64,000 nucleotides of DNA from Sanghuangporus weigelae (taxonomy: Eukaryota; Basidiomycota; Agaricomycetes; Hymenochaetales; Hymenochaetaceae). The notes beneath the pieces were generated by a model. That model did not search any database and was not told the DNA's origin. It saw nothing but the letters and a program-made list of their open reading frames with translations. Position 1 is the first letter of the stretch, and each line of letters opens with the position of its first letter. The stretch lies in contig CP137329.1 in NCBI GenBank assembly GCA_033182465.1, forward strand, positions 806,001 through 870,000. Direction: 5' to 3'. A program made the translations under genes and the position numbers. Below, piece by piece: positions 3,895 through 58,644 of this stretch.

Positions 3895-5840
3895 ATGACG
3901 AAGGACTATTTGAGAGAAAAGGCGAAGTTCTATTCCCCGTCTACCGAAGGTAACCAAAGTAGCTCTACAGATGTCGCTGCCGTCGAGATGGAACGACTTC
4001 CACGAATATGGTTGCCAAAGGCTGGCTGGAAAGATCTGGACATGGACAACAAGTTGCTGGAGCTAGTTGATGATTATCTTGCGGACTGTGAATTACCTGA
4101 GCCTCGAAGCAGTTGGGACAGACGGTTTGAGCCGGAAATTGATGACAATCACACGTTGCTTTCATGGTCTGCTAACAACCTAGAAATCCACGTATGTCGG
4201 CCTTTGTATCGACATGAAGAGTATGCCTCATGGGTTAATCAGGCTCTGGGGATGGTTAAATTTGGCGCGATTGATGCATTGGGCAAGGTCATGGCGAGCC
4301 TCGGTGGTCCAATTCGAGTTACTGATCAAACCGTTCCTCCTGAACGCGGACGCGGGAACGAATTCAAATCGAAAGTAGGTTGTGTCCTTCACGGAGAACG
4401 GGGCACCATTCTGGTGGAAGTTAAGGCCCCGCACCTCTTAGATATGTTAACCCAAATATTCGAATTGAATTCGTTCAGTATTAGTATGCGGCCGGGGGAC
4501 TCTGTTGAAAGTAGGATTATCAATAAGGTCTGTTTCAACTTATGTCTTTGTCAGTCGCAATCTTTCAAACATCGTCCGGCTGTGCATATGCATGGGTTCT
4601 CACCGAGCAAAATGGCTGGCGCTAACATCCCATCACAAATGGGTTTTTCTTCGATTACACAATGAACTCAGGAATCCTTTCATATCATATTCAAGTGTCA
4701 TCCCTCAGCAAAATGACACAAGGCCCTTCCGTGCCCTACTTGGAATGATGATCTCCTCAGAGTGAAATTGAGGACAACTCCAAAGTGATCCGGACTGGAC
4801 GGCTTCATCCGATCAAAGAAGAGAAGCAAACTAAGAAAGAACCGCCACCAGACCCCGAGAAACAAGACAAGAGCGGGTCGTACAAGGGACAGGCTCAGAG
4901 TACGAGAGATGAACCGCCGGTTGTTCGCCCAAAGACCCATTCCGAAGCCCCTCCTGTTCTTATGGTAGGTTTCCTTTTTGTTGCATTCGGCTTTAATTAC
5001 TCATCGCGCAAGCAGTTCAGCTGGTCCACCCGTGTGGCGGACCACGAACATTGGTTCTTATTCGACACCATGTTTGGAGCAGATTGGTGTTACTCATTGA
5101 GTAAATCGGATAAACCCATCATGCTCCGACTGCTTCGCGATATAGGGGAGGGTATCTCAGGGATAGTGTACGAGGCCAAAATCGACATCGACGGCCACGG
5201 CGAAGATCCTAGCTCTCCCTCGTTTGCAGTGAAGATGGTGCAGAAAAGTGATTCCGATGTCTCATCCAATCCTTGCATAAGGAGCTTGACTTCTATCGTG
5301 TGATTAACCAAGCAATACAAGAAGGAAGAATCAGAGACGTCATCGTTCCTCGTTGTTACGGCTTATTTGAATCAAAGGATATGGTCATGTTGGTCATGGA
5401 CTACGGTGGAGAGACTTTGAATAATGAAGAATGGGCTCGCTTGACGTACAAGGACAAGTAAGTCATTAATCAGTCACTTTCTGGAATAGCGGCTGACGAA
5501 ACGATAGAATTGAGATTTTCGAATCGGCGCTGTCCCTTCACGATATCGGGATTAGCCACGCTGATCTTGAACCGCGCAACATACTTCGTAGTGCGGATGG
5601 GTCCTTCAAGATCATCGACTTTTCTCTCAGTGCCTTGCATTCATGCAAGGCTATTAGAAAAGTGAGCATTCCGGTTTGTAACATTTTGCTCATGACTTAC
5701 TCGGGGCACAGGTTTCTTGGTTCGTGGAAAATGGTCACGACATCGGTTTGGATGGTGGTTGTGGTGAACTAAACTGTTATTGGATGAGATATATGAAGCA
5801 ATACTCAATGAACGGTCATATGATAATTGATGGGACGTAA
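3895..5840 (+). CDS. Protein kinase-like domain protein (agaricomycete family)
   Basis: A multi-exon gene. Exon 1 (from 3895, first good ATG) encodes about 205 residues of acidic N-terminal sequence of unknown function. The C-terminal part is a diverged protein kinase: glycine loop GEGISGIVYEA (near 5140), lysine strand FAVKMV (near 5226), hinge-like LVMDYGG (near 5390), catalytic loop HADLEPRNIL (near 5560) and a DFS in place of the usual DFG (near 5618). The gene ends at TAA 5838-5840. Introns are visible near 4530-4556, 4930-5020, 5276, 5458-5507 and 5660-5712; I did not fix every boundary. The retained HxDLxxxN and Lys suggest it may still bind ATP, but DFS and the odd N-lobe make activity uncertain. 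Such single-domain kinase-like genes are abundant in Agaricomycetes; no substrate can be named. Confidence 0.6.
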
Positions 5841-6169
5841 ATGTACTATTCCAACTTTGTATTTTCACTCATGGATGTTCCTATGTTAAGTGTTTCGTTC
5901 ATCTCGTACAGTATGCCCTGCCGTGTAGGTACATCTAATAAATAAATCACCTTGTAGATCAACTTCGTTTTGTTTTCAAAGTCACCTCGTCCGTGATGTC
6001 CTTGAAGGTCAGTGTGAAAAAAAGTAAAGCCTGGAATTGCTAAGCATATAAGGAACAACAGATGCAGCGTTTCATTCAGAGAAAATAACATCGACTCAAC
6101 AGCTTCTCTTTACAGGATCTTAATGGGGCACTATGGTCTGTAACCACTGGCACAATATGATCTTCGAGC
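5841..6169. other. 3' flank of kinase-like gene
   Basis: AT-rich with no coding signal; presumably the kinase-like 3' untranslated region followed by spacer. Confidence 0.4.
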
Positions 6170-6378
6170 TATGAAAATCTCATAGAATCATCGATTTCGC
6201 ACGGAGGGATCTTGCCTCGCTCTCCTTTATACGACTCGCTCATCGTCCTGTCTTGCTTACTATGGTCTGGCGGCGGTTCTTCTTTAGCTTGCTTCTCCTC
6301 GCGAATCGGATGAAGTGCCAGTTGTCCAATCCAGGCCATATTCGATACAACCTCAACGGACTCCACGGCGAGCGTCAT
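6170..6378 (-). pseudogene. Inverted fragment of the kinase-like gene
   Basis: Read on the minus strand, this stretch encodes LHPIREEKQAKEEPPPD and then SESYKGE. The kinase-like gene encodes LHPIKEEKQTKKEPPPD and SYKGQ at about 4800-4890 on the plus strand. Only the linker region before the kinase fold is present, with no start and no kinase domain. It lies in the gap between the kinase-like gene and the 3' end of GWT1. I read it as a diverged, inverted partial duplicate; similarity fades on both sides. Confidence 0.65.
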
Positions 6379-6514
6379 TCTGTACCTGATTGCCCTGTTT
6401 TCGCTTTGATTAAGGGCGTCACATCAGCGTCTCTTATCTCATCACAGAATTGAAAGAAGTGTTCAATCAGGATTTGGACGGGGTATACGGTAGAGAAACA
6501 AGACTGCAAATAAA

Positions 6515-8595
6515 TCAGAACTTCCATAACCTCGCCTTTCTAAATGTCCATGCCACAGCGCACAAAGCGAAAGAATACAAGGACAGAATGACCATCGCCA
6601 CACCGTCGGATGCGTACATCGTCGATACGGACAGGTTGATTAATCCAGTCGCAACATTCGCCTGTTGCATAATGAGGTTTGCGTGAGCGTAAAATCCGTG
6701 CAGGAAGAAAGGGAATAAAGGTACGACGCACAAGTAAGAAAAGCGCAAGTCCATTGAGGTTGATCGCTTCGAGTAATGACGGAGCTACAGATTTCGACTT
6801 CGATTTGCCTCCGGATACGTATGAACCCGGGTGTAGACTGCTGGGGGAGATCGGGCTGAAACTTGACGAAGTCTTTCGCGAGACAGAGAGTTTATCTAGT
6901 AAGAGGTAGAACATGATGAACGATGTGTTATATGCGGCCACCCAGATGACATAGGGTAGATTGGCCTGCCGAACGGCGAGTTGAAAAAGGAGTTGTTATA
7001 AGAACAAGTGTATATTGTTCCAAGTGAAGCGTACCAATCGTCTGGAAACCCATCCCCCGGTATTCATCCAGTAGCACACAGCGAGGCATGTCCACCAGAG
7101 GAACGCATACGAGAACAGCTCGAGAATGGTCTTATCGTCCTGTCGTTTGGGTATTTTCTTGCCATCCCTGGTCACGTTTGCGTTCTCGCTATGAGCAATT
7201 GTAGGTGAGGGCGGAGCAGAATCATTCCCTCGCAACCGTAATCGTAATCTGTTTTGCTGACGGCGAAAATCCGACGGCGAAAGTGGAAGGATGAGTGTCC
7301 CGACTGAGAGACCTAGCAGATGGATCGCAAGGTAGCCTGCAGTTCCGATGTGAGGAAGGACTCTTCAGCCGGCAGTGAGAGGTGAGACAGACCTGTAAGT
7401 GATACAAGTCCTTCTTTGTTTGCACTTAAAAGACCTCCTCGCGATGCAGTCAGCGTGTACTGTTGAAGGGGAGTCAACGACAAAGCCAGCTGATGACCTT
7501 ATTGACGCAGGCGTTGAGTTTTTCATGATGAGAGAAGACTCAAATGAGCAGAAACACTGACAAAGCGCGACCAGAAAGCCCAAAAGTGATATGGGCAGAT
7601 ATATCATTATGGGATGCAGAAGGACCTGCAGAATCGGAAGGATGGCGAGAGTGAAGAAGAAATTCCAGTGAGTGCCATACTCCGATTCATGTTCCTAATC
7701 AAAGCGTATCAATTTTAGCATCTCGATTATAAAGTTAGGACGCCTATTTAGGCTTACCGGATACTCAGTGCCTTTCACTGAGATTACGCGGATGACTCCA
7801 AGTGCGAAAACGGGAAGCACTTTCTTGACTACAGCAAGCACTTTCGGCCTAGGCGGAACTAAGAGATACATTGGGTCCTTAAGAAGCGAGATCGCGGAAA
7901 CCACGCCTTGCGAGAAAACGAATGATCCGACTCCAAGATCCATCTATGTAACTAATCCCATGAGTCTTGTCCTCTCGCAACCCTTTTCAGAGCGAGGCAG
8001 TCCCACTCACTAATGAGACTCCGAATGTTTCGCATTTCGCCAATGAACGCGGAAAAACCGGAAAATCGACAGCAAGAATGGCCAAGAAAGTCATGAGGAG
8101 CATGTGGGCTCTGTATACCGTCAAGGAAGGTAATTGTGAGATAATGATGCGCGAATTACTCGGGGGCGGGGAGGTATTAGTTGACTGTCCACTGAATGAC
8201 GATGTCCGAGAGACGGAGGGCGATAACGGAGGCTCATCGTAGTCTTTCCAGGGAAGACTGAACAATATGGCAGTCAGAATCAGGAGCATTGTGCATAGCA
8301 AGAGCGGCATCTCCGCGAAGAGGGTCATGGAGAGAAGAAGTGGTAGAACGAGAATAGTCCATTCTAGTACCAGATTGGATTGATTTAGCGAGGACAAACG
8401 GGACCTTACAGCAGCATAAAGTGCAATCGAACACTATTCTCGATACCATGAGCCCAGAGCAGTCAAGTCAGTTGCAGAGAGGTAGCTTACCAGTGCAACG
8501 GCTGAGATGAAGTTAACGTGAGTGACCGTTGAGCCCGTCGCGCCAGAGACGAAAGCCTCTTTCGACGACTTGTAATCTGCCTTGTTGCTGCTCAT
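6515..8595 (-). CDS. GWT1: GPI-anchored wall transfer protein 1 (inositol acyltransferase), complete copy
   Basis: Gwt1/PIG-W is a multi-spanning ER protein that acylates the inositol of GlcN-PI, an early step of GPI-anchor synthesis. The ATG at 8595-8593 opens with a short exon containing [11 protein letters not shown], the family N-terminal motif. Exons read 8595-8491, 8433-8011, 7943-7758, 7694-7562, 7497-7393, 7336 to about 7047, then an exon starting at about 6971, and a last exon ending at 6515; all junctions keep frame. Diagnostic blocks in order: [94 protein letters not shown] and [15 protein letters not shown] near the C-terminus. No break is seen. A second, inverted copy starts at 62443. 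Confidence 0.93.
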
Positions 8596-8686: not shown

Positions 8687-10581
8687 ATGTCTTCTTCTCT
8701 CCCCCTCGACCATGACTCCGAGTCGATGCCCGAGTTCTACATAAACCTGAGCGCTGCACCTGTCCTGAGGATGCACACAATACGAACGCGAAACATCCTC
8801 GAAATCGACGAAATCCTACGCACATTCCTGCGCTGGTGCGATAAGCCGACGCTCGCCTGCCTCGCACGAACCGCCAAGTTCTTCTCCGACCCCGCCTTGG
8901 ATATCTTGTGGGAGAACCTCGAGTCTTTCGCTCATCTCCTCAAGATATTCCCGGAGGGGCTCATCACTTGGGCGCCTGTAACTCCAAATGGCCCAATCAA
9001 AGCAGTAAGCCTACAGATATACTCTGCTTAATATGAATGCACGTCGATATGATGCTGTTGTATATGTAGACCGTGAACCACCTCATCGTGCCGCGAGACT
9101 GGAAACGATTCTCGCTGTATGCGCAGCGTGTGCGTACTTGGGGACCAGAAGACCTATCTTACGTCGAGGAGCCATTAGTCGATCATATTGCATTTGGGCG
9201 GAATCCAGGATACATCCTACCTCGACTAACGCACATGGAGGTGACGGCGACGTCCGTGTCGGGTGTGCACCTTCAAACACTCATGCTCTGCCCTACACTC
9301 GAGAGCGTATCTATATGGAACCCTGATCCAAATACCTGGGCCGCTCGCTCCATGCACACCTTTTTCCGCACTTTGGCGGATAGAGCGCCCAAGTTGAGTA
9401 AGTTCATCGTTCATTGGGGCAATGCTGGAGATGCTGTGACCGAGCATTTCGTGGAGGGCTTGTCGGATGTGTTCTCTCAGGAGCTGGTAGATCTGAAGTC
9501 GGTCAACTTGTGGACCCCGAAATGCCTTGATGCGAAGGGTTTCTCTCGACTCGCGCAACTCCCGAATCTGACGACGTTACACTTGAACCTCCTGGGGAGC
9601 ATACGCACACTCGTTTCTCAAATCGAAGACAACTCGACAGCGTTCATTTCGTTGCAGAACCTCTTCCTCGCCGGGGAGACGGAAGAGTTTCACAAAGTCG
9701 TCAAGTGCTTCGGTAACAATGCGCCATCAATGGTCAGCCTAGGATTCAGCGTGCACGCTTATCCACAGTCCCAGGAACTACAGCATTTGTTCGAGATAGT
9801 AGCATCAAAGTTCTGTTCCCTCCGCCTCTTACAATTCAACGTCCCCAAACAAGAAATCAGCGTCGATTACGCTAACAGGCTCTACATCACGACTCCGGAA
9901 CTTTACTATCACGACATGAGCGTGCTACAGCCCTTGCTCACCATGCGCAATCTCGCCGCGGTGCATCTGGAAATCGGAGTCCCCCTCTACCTTACGGATA
10001 TGGACCTGTTTGCGCTGAGTGCGGCATGGCCGGCGATCGAGGTGCTGAACTTGTGTTCTGACCCCTACTGCGAGCGCGCGAGGGCTGTGAGGCCGCCTGC
10101 TGCGACGATTATCGGGCTGTTGGCTATCGCCGAAGCGTGTCCCTCCCTCCAGCACCTCGGGCTCTTCCTTGATTGCTCGACGGGGATAACGGAGAGCATG
10201 ATCGCGGGTGCACCTGTCGCTTCGCACGCGCTCATCAATCTCGACGTCGGGCGGTCGCGCGTGCTCGAGCCGCCGCTCGTCGCGGCACTCCTGAGCGGCG
10301 TCTTCCCGAATTTGAAAGTGTTCCAGTGGGCAGGGATGGATGCGAGCGAGGGGTTGTTGGCTTCGGACGGAGGAGCAGGGGGACTGAGCTCGGGCTTGCA
10401 GGAGGGGTATGCACCCGGGTGGAGACAGGTTTTTGATCTGTTGCCCGTGTTCAGGGCTGTTCGGGCTAGCGAGCGACGGGAGAGAGGTTTGCTTGATTGG
10501 AACACCGATGCAAGTGTTTTATCTTGTTCTATTGCGAGTGCGGGTGTCGGGGATGGGAGAACGTCGATGGTCGTGGATTGA
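8687..10581 (+). CDS. F-box/LRR-type protein
   Basis: Two exons, 8687-9004 and 9070-10581 (65-nt intron, GTAAGC...GTAG), give 609 residues. Residues about 38-75 have an F-box-like pattern (EILRTFLRWCDKPTLACLARTAK..., then a LWENL end); the rest is made of irregular leucine-rich segments such as LPNLTTLHLNLLG and PSLQHLGLFLDC. This is the usual layout of the large basidiomycete F-box/LRR families, thought to be substrate adaptors of SCF ubiquitin ligases; the target is unknown. Part of its 3' half (10138-10310) is found again, decayed and inverted, at 55167-55340. Confidence 0.75.
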
Positions 10582-53303: not shown

Positions 53304-53842
53304 ACTCGTCCATAACGACTATCCATTCTTGCATATTGTCGCCCACGCATCTTCGCAGTTCCGATGAAAGACACCAATTTACGATTACTTTAGTTGGTTA
53401 TATCGCGTGTACGCTAGTTTGTTTGGGCATGGTTTTCTCTGGATAATTGATGCGGACAGTTTACTATTTGCAACATGAAGCTACCTTTTTTTTGCGGAGA
53501 GAATACTCTATTCCTTTTCTTTCTTTTTTTCGCGGTCATTCGTATTTCTCTCCGATCTCCATTTGCTTATTTTCCCTTGGGGGTTTTCCGCTACGACGGC
53601 CACGTATTTCAAAGCCATTGCACGCTCTTCATGACGATCGTAGATTGGCTCACCACTCGTATGCATGTTCATCTGGACTTGGACATCGCTTGGTTTCCTT
53701 TTCACAAACTATGTTTGTGCATATACCCTTCGCTACGTGCGACCACATTGCGTGCATTACCGCATAGTCTAAAAATCTCGACATAATATACAACGCATTC
53801 TAAAGTGAACACCGCATGCGGAATTGGCCTGTGAGTGAAGAG
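53304..53842. other. Convergent 3' region
   Basis: 3' flank of the GPI-protein gene; T-rich frames at 53447-53786 show no domain features. No gene supported. Confidence 0.45.
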
Positions 53843-55166
53843 TTAGATACGACATACCCAAGGAGGTTCATGTGAACTATGTAGTCTCGAAGTTTTCGCA
53901 ATGATGTCTTGGGCAAGCAACCTCGACTCCGGATTTGTAGAACCACTCGAGCTCAGGATTTCGGAAAGCCAAGAGCAGTCATCAGTTAGCTCAAGTGCAC
54001 GGTCCGGTGCCGATCCATTTTGGGCCATCGACACGACCTCCCAATCAGTCAGGTTATGAAATGGTAGTTCCCTTAGGTATATCTGTACGGGTCAAGCCAG
54101 CGGCATCCACGTAGAGTGACAGAACAACTGGCTTCCAAGCAGGTCATTCCAAAGGCGTAAATATCAGACTTTTCATTCACATGACCATCACCACCGTGAA
54201 CGCTGGGGTGTACGAGCTCAGGAGCCATCCAGCGGAGGGTTCCGCTTATTCCTGTGCCGACGGTTAGCGTACCTGCATTGACGAGTCGCGCTAGACCGAA
54301 ATCTGCAATTCGAGGGCTTCCGGAATCGTCAACGAGAATATTAGCCTAGTCAAGACGTGACGGGGAAAGTCCAGTAGGTTAGTAGTAATAACGCTATTAC
54401 TCAAGAAAAGAATATTGCTGACGCATTTGAGGTCTCCGTGTATTACCTCAGGCTCATTGTTGTGTAAATAAGCCAGTCCTGAGCAAATCTGCTTCGCCTA
54501 TTCCGAAGAAAAAAAAGTGAGAACGGTTCCAGTCTGAAATTTAAGATAAGACTTACCATGTCGAATTTGTCTATAATCGGATTTCGTCGAAGATAGGTCG
54601 GCAGATCCCCCGTTGTCCATGAAAGGTGAAACAAGTCCGACAGAAAGAAATTCCTCGCTACAAATCCCGAGGAATGACAAAATGTTTGGATGGTCAAGCG
54701 GTTTCCAAAATGAATGCCTCCTTGCACAGTTCCTGTCAGCCACAAGTGAGTCTAGCGTCTACCTGAGGTCAAGTGAAATTGACTATCCGATGCTTTTGTC
54801 TCTTCGTCTCGGAATCCCAGAAAAAAGAGAGATCTTGACTGCCACTTTTTGTTTGCCAATTCGTCCTTTGTATATGTCGCCGTAACTTCCGCCTCCGATT
54901 GGATGCTCTTGTAGCTTCTCCACATTACGCAAGTAAAAACTTTTAGGTAAGATTCCGTAGTTTCTTGCTTTGTTGTAAAGGAATCGATCCAGTTCTTTTC
55001 TTTCATTACCAGTCAGCTTCTCCGCACTGTCGTCGAGGATCTGATGATGCAATTGGAACAAAGGAAAAACCAGAAACTTCACTTGACTAGTACTCACTTC
55101 CTGAGCAATATTGACCCTCTCTATTACATTCCGTATGATCGCTCTGCTGGTATGACCGGAATCGCC
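53843..55166 (-). CDS. TKL-type protein kinase, 5' end unresolved
   Basis: A basidiomycete tyrosine-kinase-like Ser/Thr kinase read in about six exons. A pre-kinase helix (LTGNERKELDRFLYNKARNY then GILPKSFYLRNVEKLQEHPI) leads to the glycine loop GGGSYGDIYKG and VAVKI; then WKPLDHPNILSFLGIC, ICSGLAYLHNNEP, the catalytic HGDLKC (split by an intron) ANILVDDSG, ADFGLARL, GTLRWMAPEL and SDIYAFGMTCLE, IYLRELPFHNLTDWE. All catalytic residues (Lys, HGD, DFG, APE) are present. The last intron appears to start with GC. No in-frame ATG was found upstream: the first readable exon runs straight into the F-box fragment at 55167-55340. So the gene is either truncated or starts in DNA I could not resolve. 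Confidence 0.7.
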
Positions 55167-55340
55167 CCCTGCCCACTGGAACACGTTCAGATTCGGGAAG
55201 ACGCCGCTTAGAAGCGCCGCAACCGCCCGACATTGAGATTGATGAGCGCGTGCAAAGCAACAGGTGCACTCGTGATCATGCTCTCTGTTATCCCCGTTGA
55301 GCAATCAAGGAAGAGCCCAAGGTGCTGGAGGGAGGGGCAC
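55167..55340 (-). pseudogene. Decayed F-box/LRR gene fragment
   Basis: On the minus strand this matches bases 10138-10310 of the F-box gene (VAALLSGVFPNLNVFQWAG versus VAALLSGVFPNLKVFQWAG), with a deletion of about two dozen bases that shifts frame and an early stop in the native frame. Most base differences are C to T or G to A at CpG sites of the intact gene. The homology stops at 55340, exactly where the inverted repeat of the next element begins. It abuts the kinase 5' end on the other side. Confidence 0.85.
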
Positions 55341-55504
55341 GAGATAAGCCAACTAACCTAGAAGTAAGAAAAGTTGATTAAGTTAAGATGATGCAATTAT
55401 TATTAGCCCTAACCCTAACCCTAATCGTGTACCTGAGCCTAACTCTAAGTCTGACCTTACACAACTCAATCTAAATCCATCTTCTAGGTTAGTTGGCTTA
55501 TCTC
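55341..55504. mobile_element. 164-bp element with perfect 24-bp TIRs and telomere-type repeats
   Basis: Bases 55341-55364 (starting GAGATAAGCCAACTAACC) are perfectly reverse-complemented at 55481-55504. Between them lie three exact CCCTAA units at 55407-55424 followed by degenerate ones. No protein is encoded. I saw no clear target duplication. It could be a MITE, or a fold-back formed when a chromosome end carrying telomere repeats was joined. The left edge coincides with the end of F-box homology. Confidence 0.75.
55407..55424. repeat. Interstitial telomere-type repeat, (CCCTAA)3
   Basis: Three exact copies of the common fungal telomere unit, read C-rich strand left to right, followed by CCTAACTCTAA-like variants to about 55450. 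Confidence 0.9.
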
Positions 55505-56307
55505 ATTGATGAGGTCTTTTATACTATTAGATTACTTCAGAACATTCATTCTACTTATCACTTTAGTTACCAATTACTCATCTCAGTTTTAATGCAAACT
55601 TCTTTTATACTCTTAGCTTCTATCAGGGCCTACTTTCTTACTTTACTTTAATTTTCCTAAGTTAGCATATATAATACAACTTTTCTTTATTTCTATAATA
55701 TTCTAGCTTTTTATAATAATTCTTAGTTGCAATAGTAGTATAAATAATATTATAACTATAATAAACAATAGAAAACAACTCTTATTACAATTGTAGTCAT
55801 AATAAATAACTAAGATAAGTCAGATAAATAGTACAAGTTATTATAATCTGTGTTAGCTATATATAATATAAGATATATTATTAACTTATTATAATCTACA
55901 AAGCTTATCTATATACCATATCAACTTGCTTTGAAACAAAATCTAACTATATTTGTGTTAGGGAGTAGGCCCGGGGTTACACCGGTTCGATCCTTTTGCC
56001 TAAGCAGCGGTGTGTTGTGCAGAGGTGATCTTATCTACCCACGTCTGGCTGTACCACGTGGTCCCTTACTAGCCTTCCTAGTCGCGGTCCGAGTTATGGA
56101 TGCTTTCAGATACGAGGTGATAGTAAAGCAGATTGGGATTTCCAAGAGGCGTGATAGTACAAAGCACACAGTAATAGTCTAGTTAGGACTTTACACCAGT
56201 GTGTTAAGAGGATCAAAAGATGGGGAAATGAGGACCTAATCTTACAACTATTTATGCTCCCAGATATTCCATTTTCCGTCCTATTTCTTACTCATCCTGT
56301 TTCCACT
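55505..56307. other. AT-rich DNA
   Basis: Strongly AT-rich at 55505-55960 (runs of TATAATA and TTATTATAA), then mixed sequence. No gene supported. Contrasts with the flanking genes and looks like decayed or repeat-derived DNA. Confidence 0.5.
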
Positions 56308-56407
56308 TTACTCCACTCTTTGTAAGGTCGTCTCCACTATGACAGAATTCTGTGGAGTTGCTGACTGAGACAATAGAGGTGGTGTTCCAATGATGAATGC
56401 TCCACTG

Positions 56408-57049
56408 TCAGTACTCCATAACGATGTCATTGCCATTATTAAGTGGCATCTTTGCCCTTGGAGCGATGTAGGCTGCTCGGTATGTGATTCTTCGGAATTC
56501 ATCTCGAGGTCCAGCGAGGGTAAGCATAACTCGCACGTCCGTGTTAAGGTGTTGAGTCGGTGTAGAGTATGGTCCAAGGCATATCATGAACTGCATAAGC
56601 TCTGCTGGTGGGTTCTGCTGGGTTCTGGTGACTAGCCATGCTTTGCCTTCATATCGTATGTCTCGGATGTAATGCCATATCCTTCGTTGTATAAGGAGTT
56701 GTAATTGCTTGGTCTCCAGGTTTGCATCTCTTGGTAAATAAAGGTTTGCCTGTATTGTAGATGCTGGACATAGTGTGTGCAACTCCGGTCTATACCATCC
56801 TATCATTCTCCAAGTTATCGGGTTCGCAGTTCGAGGGGTCCGAGTTGTGATCGTGAGTTCCTCTCGTTTCTTGGGTACTATTGGGTTTGGTGGATTGGAA
56901 TGCATTGTATCTTGAAGGTGTCGCTCGGTTTCGATGTGACAGTCATGCGTACCAACTGTTGCCGTGCATACTATGTAGTATACTTCATAAAGGACCATGT
57001 AAACTCGTGCACAGACTTGACAGTGCTGAAATGCCAGTGAGGTCTCCAT
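56408..57049 (-). CDS. Orphan hypothetical frame
   Basis: One open frame of 213 codons from an ATG at 57049 to a stop at 56408, set in AT-rich repeat-bearing DNA. Its middle reads like protein (RMIGWYRPELHTLCPAST, IQRRIWHYIRDIRYEGKAWL, RVMLTLAGPRDEFRRITYRA). Codon composition is more balanced than the surroundings. No domain recognised. It may be part of an unidentified repeat family. Confidence 0.4.
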   Translation of the reverse strand: METSLAFQHCQVCARVYMVLYEVYYIVCTATVGTHDCHIETERHLQDTMHSNPPNPIVPKKREELTITTRTPRTANPITWRMIGWYRPELHTLCPASTIQANLYLPRDANLETKQLQLLIQRRIWHYIRDIRYEGKAWLVTRTQQNPPAELMQFMICLGPYSTPTQHLNTDVRVMLTLAGPRDEFRRITYRAAYIAPRAKMPLNNGNDIVMEY

Positions 57050-57891
57050 AAACCTTATTAGCCTTTAGCCTTTTAGCGTTTAGGCTTTAGTAGTTGTGCT
57101 TCTGGACTTCTAAGAAGTTTGATCGCTTCTTTTGATCGAGGTCGCTTTGGTTGCTTGGTCGGCGGCGTTAGAGTGGTAGTCCGCGGTAATAGGCGGTCGG
57201 CGGTGTTAGTTGTTAGCGGGATTACGTATCCGCTTTGGTACTTCTAGCGCTCGGGTGGTAACGGGTTACTGGTCGCGTTTGGAAAGCTGATCGTGTGGAT
57301 GTGCTGATTGCGTCGATCCTGATGCGAGATTTTGAGCGGATCCTTTCAATTTGTATCATTTACTCTAGTATTATATTATTCTATTGAAAACAGAGACGTT
57401 GCTGGTCTTACAATAACAATATAGATTTAGGTTATTCCTCTTAGTGATCACTGAGAGCAAACACAATATATAAAAAAAAAGGTCTAAACTACCCACAGCT
57501 ATCCACAGCTATAAGTAGTTTGGATTGTTTTTCTGATGCTAGAATGTAACTACGAAAAGTACATATAATATATATATATTTCTTATCTGGGGTATACCTC
57601 TGGGCATCTAAGTAAGTTTCCGAACTCGGGCATCTCAAAATCTAATATACTCAACATTACAGATCTTATGCTAATATTACTAATATATGTAAATTCAGAT
57701 TCTGCTTAAAATTTGCATTCTGGCAGTACTTATTTCATCTAAATTGGTGCAGAACTCAGTCTGATATACATATTTTTGTATTTTATCTACTGCATTCAAA
57801 TGAGTATTTCTTGATTTGTTGGTTAACTAAGCCATTACATAAAGTCAGACAGCCATTCCCACGAAAATTCTGCACAAAAAAGTATATAAAC
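57050..57891. other. Repeat-like, AT-rich spacer
   Basis: 57170-57240 contains GGCGGTCGGCGGTGTTAG-like local repeats; 57360-57890 is AT-rich. No gene and no terminal repeats identified. Confidence 0.4.
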
Positions 57892-58607: not shown

Positions 58608-58644
58608 GGAGTTTACAACATGTTTGCAACATGTTGTAAACTCC
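58608..58644. repeat. Perfect 15-bp hairpin near the left hAT end
   Basis: GGAGTTTACAACATG (58608-58622) and its exact reverse complement (58630-58644) around a 7-nt loop. ACAACATG also occurs at 58584 and near the right end at 62351, so it may be a subterminal transposase-binding motif. Confidence 0.7.

Follow-up and report, generated by a model that had tools for sequence, protein, structure and literature searches.

Among the closest described systems are the products of double-strand break repair in yeast, where fold-back inversions arise, most of them about 5-34 bp, and the other end is joined with 0-5 bp of microhomology, according to the excerpted report (PMC11724301). Interior telomere repeats are documented in Pyricularia oryzae, for which the excerpt of a genome survey gives 2-21 interior (CCCTAA)3+ runs per genome, most interstitial motifs being subterminal (PMC8381367). 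Here we describe a 164-bp block of Sanghuangporus weigelae that lies at the end of a duplicated gene fragment and encloses a telomere-like tract between perfect inverted arms. We propose, at roughly even odds (probability about 0.5), that it is a fold-back DNA-repair scar holding a telomere relic, in which a broken end would have folded back, copied 24 bp of itself and been joined to an F-box gene fragment.

Results

A perfect inverted repeat begins where the F-box homology stops

The genome comprises 13 contigs with 33,870,148 bases in total, and the window, the whole stretch of 64,000 nucleotides that was analysed, covers C12:806001-870000. The block occupies positions 55341-55504, and, as had been claimed, its ends are perfect: the left arm (55341-55364, plus strand) and the right arm (55481-55504, minus strand) are exact reverse complements over 24 nt (100% complementary), separated by 116 nt. 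They form the longest perfect inverted repeat of the window at spans up to 400 bp, the runner-up being 17 bp, and the maximum in 20 Markov-generated control windows was 15 bp. Folded as single-stranded DNA, the block performs well beyond its shuffles (z -6.47; 0/200 as good). The block is a real, statistically solid junction feature. A second perfect inverted repeat, of 17 bp with a 3-bp spacer, is present at 58608-58644.

To the left of the block lies a decayed 175-bp fragment of an F-box/LRR-like gene (55167-55341, minus strand), which aligns to 10335-10136 and is thus inverted relative to its other copy (10136-10335, plus strand) and 25 bp shorter than that matching stretch. The other copy sits within a 502-aa open frame (9073-10581) whose F-box label is that of the original prediction; a Pfam search with this frame gave no match at E≤0.001. 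The homology was said to end at the left edge of the block, and it does so to the base: the last shared position is the G at 55341, with which the arm begins and which is common to both sides. A continuation of the homology for 10 bp into the arm (GATA-AGCCAAC), obtained under two of three gap schemes, was rejected as not significant: under three scorings it was matched by 154, 46 and 400 of 400 24-mers drawn at random from the window. The two F-box copies differ by 15 substitutions over 175 aligned bases, nine at CpG sites of the other, longer copy and six elsewhere. All nine CpG substitutions are C>T or G>A if the longer copy is taken as ancestral, and the CpG-site changes suggest decay of the duplicate through CpG methylation. 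Beside the fragment, also on the minus strand, are pieces of a protein-kinase domain (54076-54497), apparently split by introns or decayed, of which 54076-54345 scores above the Pfam cut-off and 54294-54497 below it.

Base composition shifts at 55341. The F-box fragment has 58% GC and the DNA left of it 44%, whereas the spacers within the block and the right flank have 20-33%; because of this change the AT-rich spacer (55365-55403, 20.5% GC) and the short spacer (55460-55480, 33% GC) are assigned to the right-hand side. The arms (42% GC, both devoid of CpG) and the telomere-like tract (46% GC) are not AT-rich.

The right flank proper (55505-55955) is AT-rich and ends at the start of a high-copy LTR-type repeat (55956-56400, TGTTAGGG...). 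Part of it (55621-55945) has a 74% relative at C8:1149969-1150317. This relative (L044:3970-4318 in the extracted C8 stretch, L044) lies just within a roughly 560-bp inverted repeat (92%, L044:3410-6886), and 5793-6886 of the same stretch is a 1.1-kb palindrome (97%). The LTR-type repeat, starting TGTTAGGGAGTAGGCC, has at least 81 matched pieces with 40 of 382 candidates scored, and the listed copies include four pairs about 10.7-10.8 kb apart; a search with 55956-57500 that covered the window and the 5 kb beyond it found no second copy. A search of 54601-56400 for known RNAs gave one lncRNA match (56191-56263), which was discarded as sub-threshold (16.9 bits, cut-off 40).

The native telomere has a 12-13 bp unit

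At 24 of the 26 contig ends we found arrays of about 120-240 bp in which CCCTAA and GCCTAA alternate, not plain CCCTAA; no array is present at the right ends of C5 and C13. The telomere is built from a 12-bp unit, CCCTAAGCCTAA, and a 13-bp variant, CCCTAAAGCCTAA, which together read CCCTAA(A)GCCTAA and on the G-strand TTAGGCTTAGGG or TTAGGCTTTAGGG. The string CCCTAAGCCTAACC has 241 genome copies, against 0 for its reversed control, and 239 of the 241 are in the terminal 3 kb. A looser 19-base telomere pattern gave 205 matches, and the roughly 100 listed are all terminal. For CCCTAACCCTAA there are 23 sites, 20 in terminal 3-kb stretches, two overlapping within the block and one, at C1:4468269, located 23 kb inward of the contig end. 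The run (CCCTAA)3 occurs once in the genome, in the block, and is absent from the terminal arrays.

The region of C1:4468269 comprises subterminal tandem units and a 514-aa reverse-transcriptase-like frame with telomere tracts beside it; this frame has no Pfam match at E≤0.05. By its motifs, the element looks like a telomere-associated Penelope-like element. Penelope-like elements near telomeres are described for Agaricus bisporus in the excerpted source (PMC7473861).

A literature search with six rotations of the 12-bp unit returned, among the matches listed, no title evidently on such a telomere; those listed are by title mostly on primer or oligo sequences, with one fungal chromosome-end paper. 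The phrase 'interstitial telomer' was likewise not found among the listed matches on mushrooms. The 12-13 bp unit is possibly of more interest than the junction block itself, and searches for interstitial plain TTAGGG would mis-size relics wherever, as here, the telomere unit is longer.

The block encloses a degenerate telomere relic

The block had been reported to enclose (CCCTAA)3. This perfect core is indeed there, between the arms at 55407-55424 (plus strand), but the repeats do not end with its 18 bp. A tract of about 56 bp (55404-55459, C-rich strand on the plus strand) aligns without gaps to the 12-bp unit, with 44/56 positions in register and 12/56 differing. The stretch that follows the core (55425-55480) fits the 12-bp unit best, with a score of 31, compared with 23 for the 13-bp variant and 21 for plain CCCTAA. 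A score of 31 was reached by 0/1000 dinucleotide shuffles and by none of the 77-bp tiles of the window (n=3197) away from the block, the best elsewhere being 20. Mismatches cluster directly after the core (5/7 at 55425-55431, then 5/28 at 55432-55459). The tract is accordingly a telomere relic of native type, degenerate and longer than first described. With native-type repeats at C12:861404-861459 of 1,651,260 bases, a non-terminal position, it belongs among interstitial telomeric sequences.

CCCTAA on the plus strand is the orientation of a left chromosome end, and as a former end the tract would go with the AT-rich DNA to its right. The relic may once have been a real chromosome end or may be a captured snippet. 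Compared with the terminal 3 kb of all 26 contig ends, the right flank showed, among the matches listed, no similarity to chromosome ends apart from the telomere tract, and the one relative found for the flank is the mid-contig C8 locus; a former chromosome end is therefore unsupported beyond the tract, and a subtelomeric origin of the flank was rejected.

The tract looks like an older relic of the right-hand DNA that predates the arms; it looks either older than they are or already degenerate when it was placed. The 12-bp unit itself contains no CpG. Since the arms are free of CpG and the F-box copies have just six non-CpG differences, the arms may date from the same time as the F-box junction. 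The identity of all 24 arm pairs is compatible with a single age for arms and junction, its probability at 5% divergence being estimated at about 0.3.

A fold-back model for the junction

In the model that we prefer, the AT-rich DNA on the right would have carried an old, degenerate piece of native telomere near its left end, in left-chromosome-end orientation, and a double-strand break would have occurred just left of this relic. The resected 3' end would then fold back, leaving a loop of about 116 nt, and synthesis would be primed by a short complementary stretch such as CTTCT/AGAAG, which lies at the arms' inner edge. Copying its own strand for 24 bp would create the perfect inverted arm 55341-55364, with 55481-55504 as the original copy, and the new end would finally be ligated to the already duplicated F-box fragment through a microhomology of about 1 bp (G). 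The fold-back, the end joining and their sequence in time are what we infer from one present-day sequence.

The feature expected of a fold-back inversion at a break, an inverted copy adjoining the junction, is present. Under the model the outer edge of the new arm is also where F-box homology ends, which would explain why the two coincide; fold-back followed by a one-base join would equally account for perfect arms, the change in composition, the lack of other copies and the lack of a visible target-site duplication. The in-register match of the tract to the native unit and its left-end orientation also agree with the model. Against it stand a loop of 116 nt, compared with 41 nt in the yeast case, priming bases that are indistinguishable from the arm itself, a perfect (CCCTAA)3 that adjoins a mismatched stretch, and arms and a tract that are not AT-rich.

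Alternative origins of the block

A fragment that already possessed inverted arms and telomere-like repeats could instead have been inserted whole at the break by end joining. The locus juxtaposes unrelated pieces, namely a kinase remnant, the F-box fragment, the block, AT-rich DNA and an LTR, which suits the capture of filler DNA, and distant double (two-fragment) inverted insertions occur in yeast mutants according to the excerpted report (PMC11724301). We nevertheless regard this origin as unlikely, though worth keeping in view: the genome searches brought up no donor sequence for arms or spacers, and the composition of the spacers goes with the right flank. Filler templated locally was considered separately and rejected. 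The 12-mer GATGATGCAATT, shared with 55043-55054, is unremarkable in that 26/500 Markov-generated blocks share at least 12 bases with the 1-kb flanks; in a second test, one comparison out of 8 yielded p=0.008, and the left spacer plus arm matched the AT-rich flank in inverted orientation at p=0.023, both unconvincing after 8 tests.

The original prediction had offered a MITE (a non-autonomous terminal-inverted-repeat transposon) with captured telomere repeats, here in a single copy, as one of two explanations. Perfect 24-bp inverted ends, a short body and an arm edge coincident with the junction would suit such an element, as would perfect ends around a degenerate body, the pattern that selection by transposition would give. 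The search for further copies of the ends, which the prediction had proposed as a check, did not bear this out. In genome similarity searches, in which the best candidates were scored and very common words skipped, no second copy of the 164-bp block turned up, its matches being itself and its two arms; the inner 136 bp (55365-55500) at E≤10 matched itself and the opposite arm and nothing else in the genome (one candidate scored). A 16-bp core of the left arm has no genome site beyond the two arms at up to one mismatch. At up to two mismatches it has 10 matches (the two arms exactly and eight with two mismatches), against 24 for its reversed control, and is hence no commoner than the control. 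The flanks, compared by eye, show no target-site duplication or other direct repeat beside 55341 and 55504, and a TA duplication placed inside the arms would need four extra bases that are palindromic by chance (GAGA/TCTC). With terminal inverted repeats but neither dispersed copies nor a visible target-site duplication, and with the only (CCCTAA)3 of the genome inside it, the block is improbable as a MITE.

The arms could themselves be degenerate native telomere repeats. If so, the 164 bp would be an insert that carries telomere-type sequence at each end, oriented as in a chromosome. Such an insert, at a break in mid-chromosome, would represent either linear DNA that was captured there or an inverted repeat of telomeric origin. 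The arm can be aligned, as TAAGCC-AA--CTAA-CCTA, against TAAGCCTAACCCTAAGCCTA. Its likeness is equalled by 54/7997 window 24-mers, by 0.16-0.8% of 5000 random 24-mers (three scorings) and by 0.2-0.65% of single-base shuffles, and by 7-23% of the arm's dinucleotide shuffles. We give this origin a slim chance.

The other explanation in the original prediction was that a broken end received telomere repeats and was then rejoined. Compared with a MITE, a breakpoint scar in the general sense is the better fit, as neither a second copy nor a target-site duplication was seen and the DNA differs on either side; the simple telomere-addition form is not supported. Native-type repeats do lie near the junction, as telomerase healing would leave them, but their orientation is wrong for the F-box side, where healing would put TTAGGG-type rather than CCCTAA-type repeats on the plus strand at 55342. 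Moreover, the tract is degenerate and starts 62 bp inward of that point, and the terminal arrays contain no (CCCTAA)3. Healing and rejoining is accordingly highly doubtful as the origin of the junction; telomerase healing of the right-hand side alone is possible.

An insertion derived from telomerase RNA (TERC-ITS type), in which the spacer beside the repeats would be a copy of that RNA, has a similar general layout of repeats and unique flank in one insert (excerpt of PMC8537989), yet is very improbable here, the spacers having no other match at E≤10 (one candidate scored) in the genome, which ought to include the telomerase RNA gene, although a strongly decayed copy could escape such a search. 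A symmetrical intron or introner with terminal inverted repeats can be set aside as no more probable, despite splice-like motifs seen by eye at the inner edges of the arms (GTAAGA from 55364, CTTCTAG at 55481-55487) and the inverted ends without flanking duplications of Hypoxylaceae stwintrons described in the excerpt of PMC8469720, given a single copy, a decayed F-box fragment on the minus strand and no plus-strand frame longer than 102 aa overlapping 53800-56500.

Discussion

If the fold-back model is true, one short sequence would combine a telomere relic with a fold-back inversion, both of them signatures of repair, within a mid-chromosome fungal rearrangement. Each has its own counterpart among known systems, and so do the alternatives.

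With MITEs the block shares short length and terminal inverted repeats, and it differs in that no second copy was found and no target-site duplication seen. With vertebrate interstitial telomeric sequences, including TERC-ITS, it has in common telomere-like repeats at presumed sites of break repair, as far as the excerpted account goes (PMC8537989); it is fungal, its tract is degenerate, and no telomerase-RNA-like flank was found. The telomere relics of Pyricularia oryzae, in the excerpt of PMC8381367, are also short interstitial tracts of native type, read there as former or repaired ends. The block has a single such tract, located mid-chromosome, degenerate, enclosed by an inverted repeat and derived from a telomere unit of 12-13 bp. 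Finally, the yeast case of local fold-back inversion, as presented in the excerpt of PMC11724301, was induced, with a 41-nt loop and a pre-existing imperfect 10-bp inverted repeat, whereas the loop of the block would be 116 nt; the two share a short inverted copy beside a junction and a join with little microhomology.
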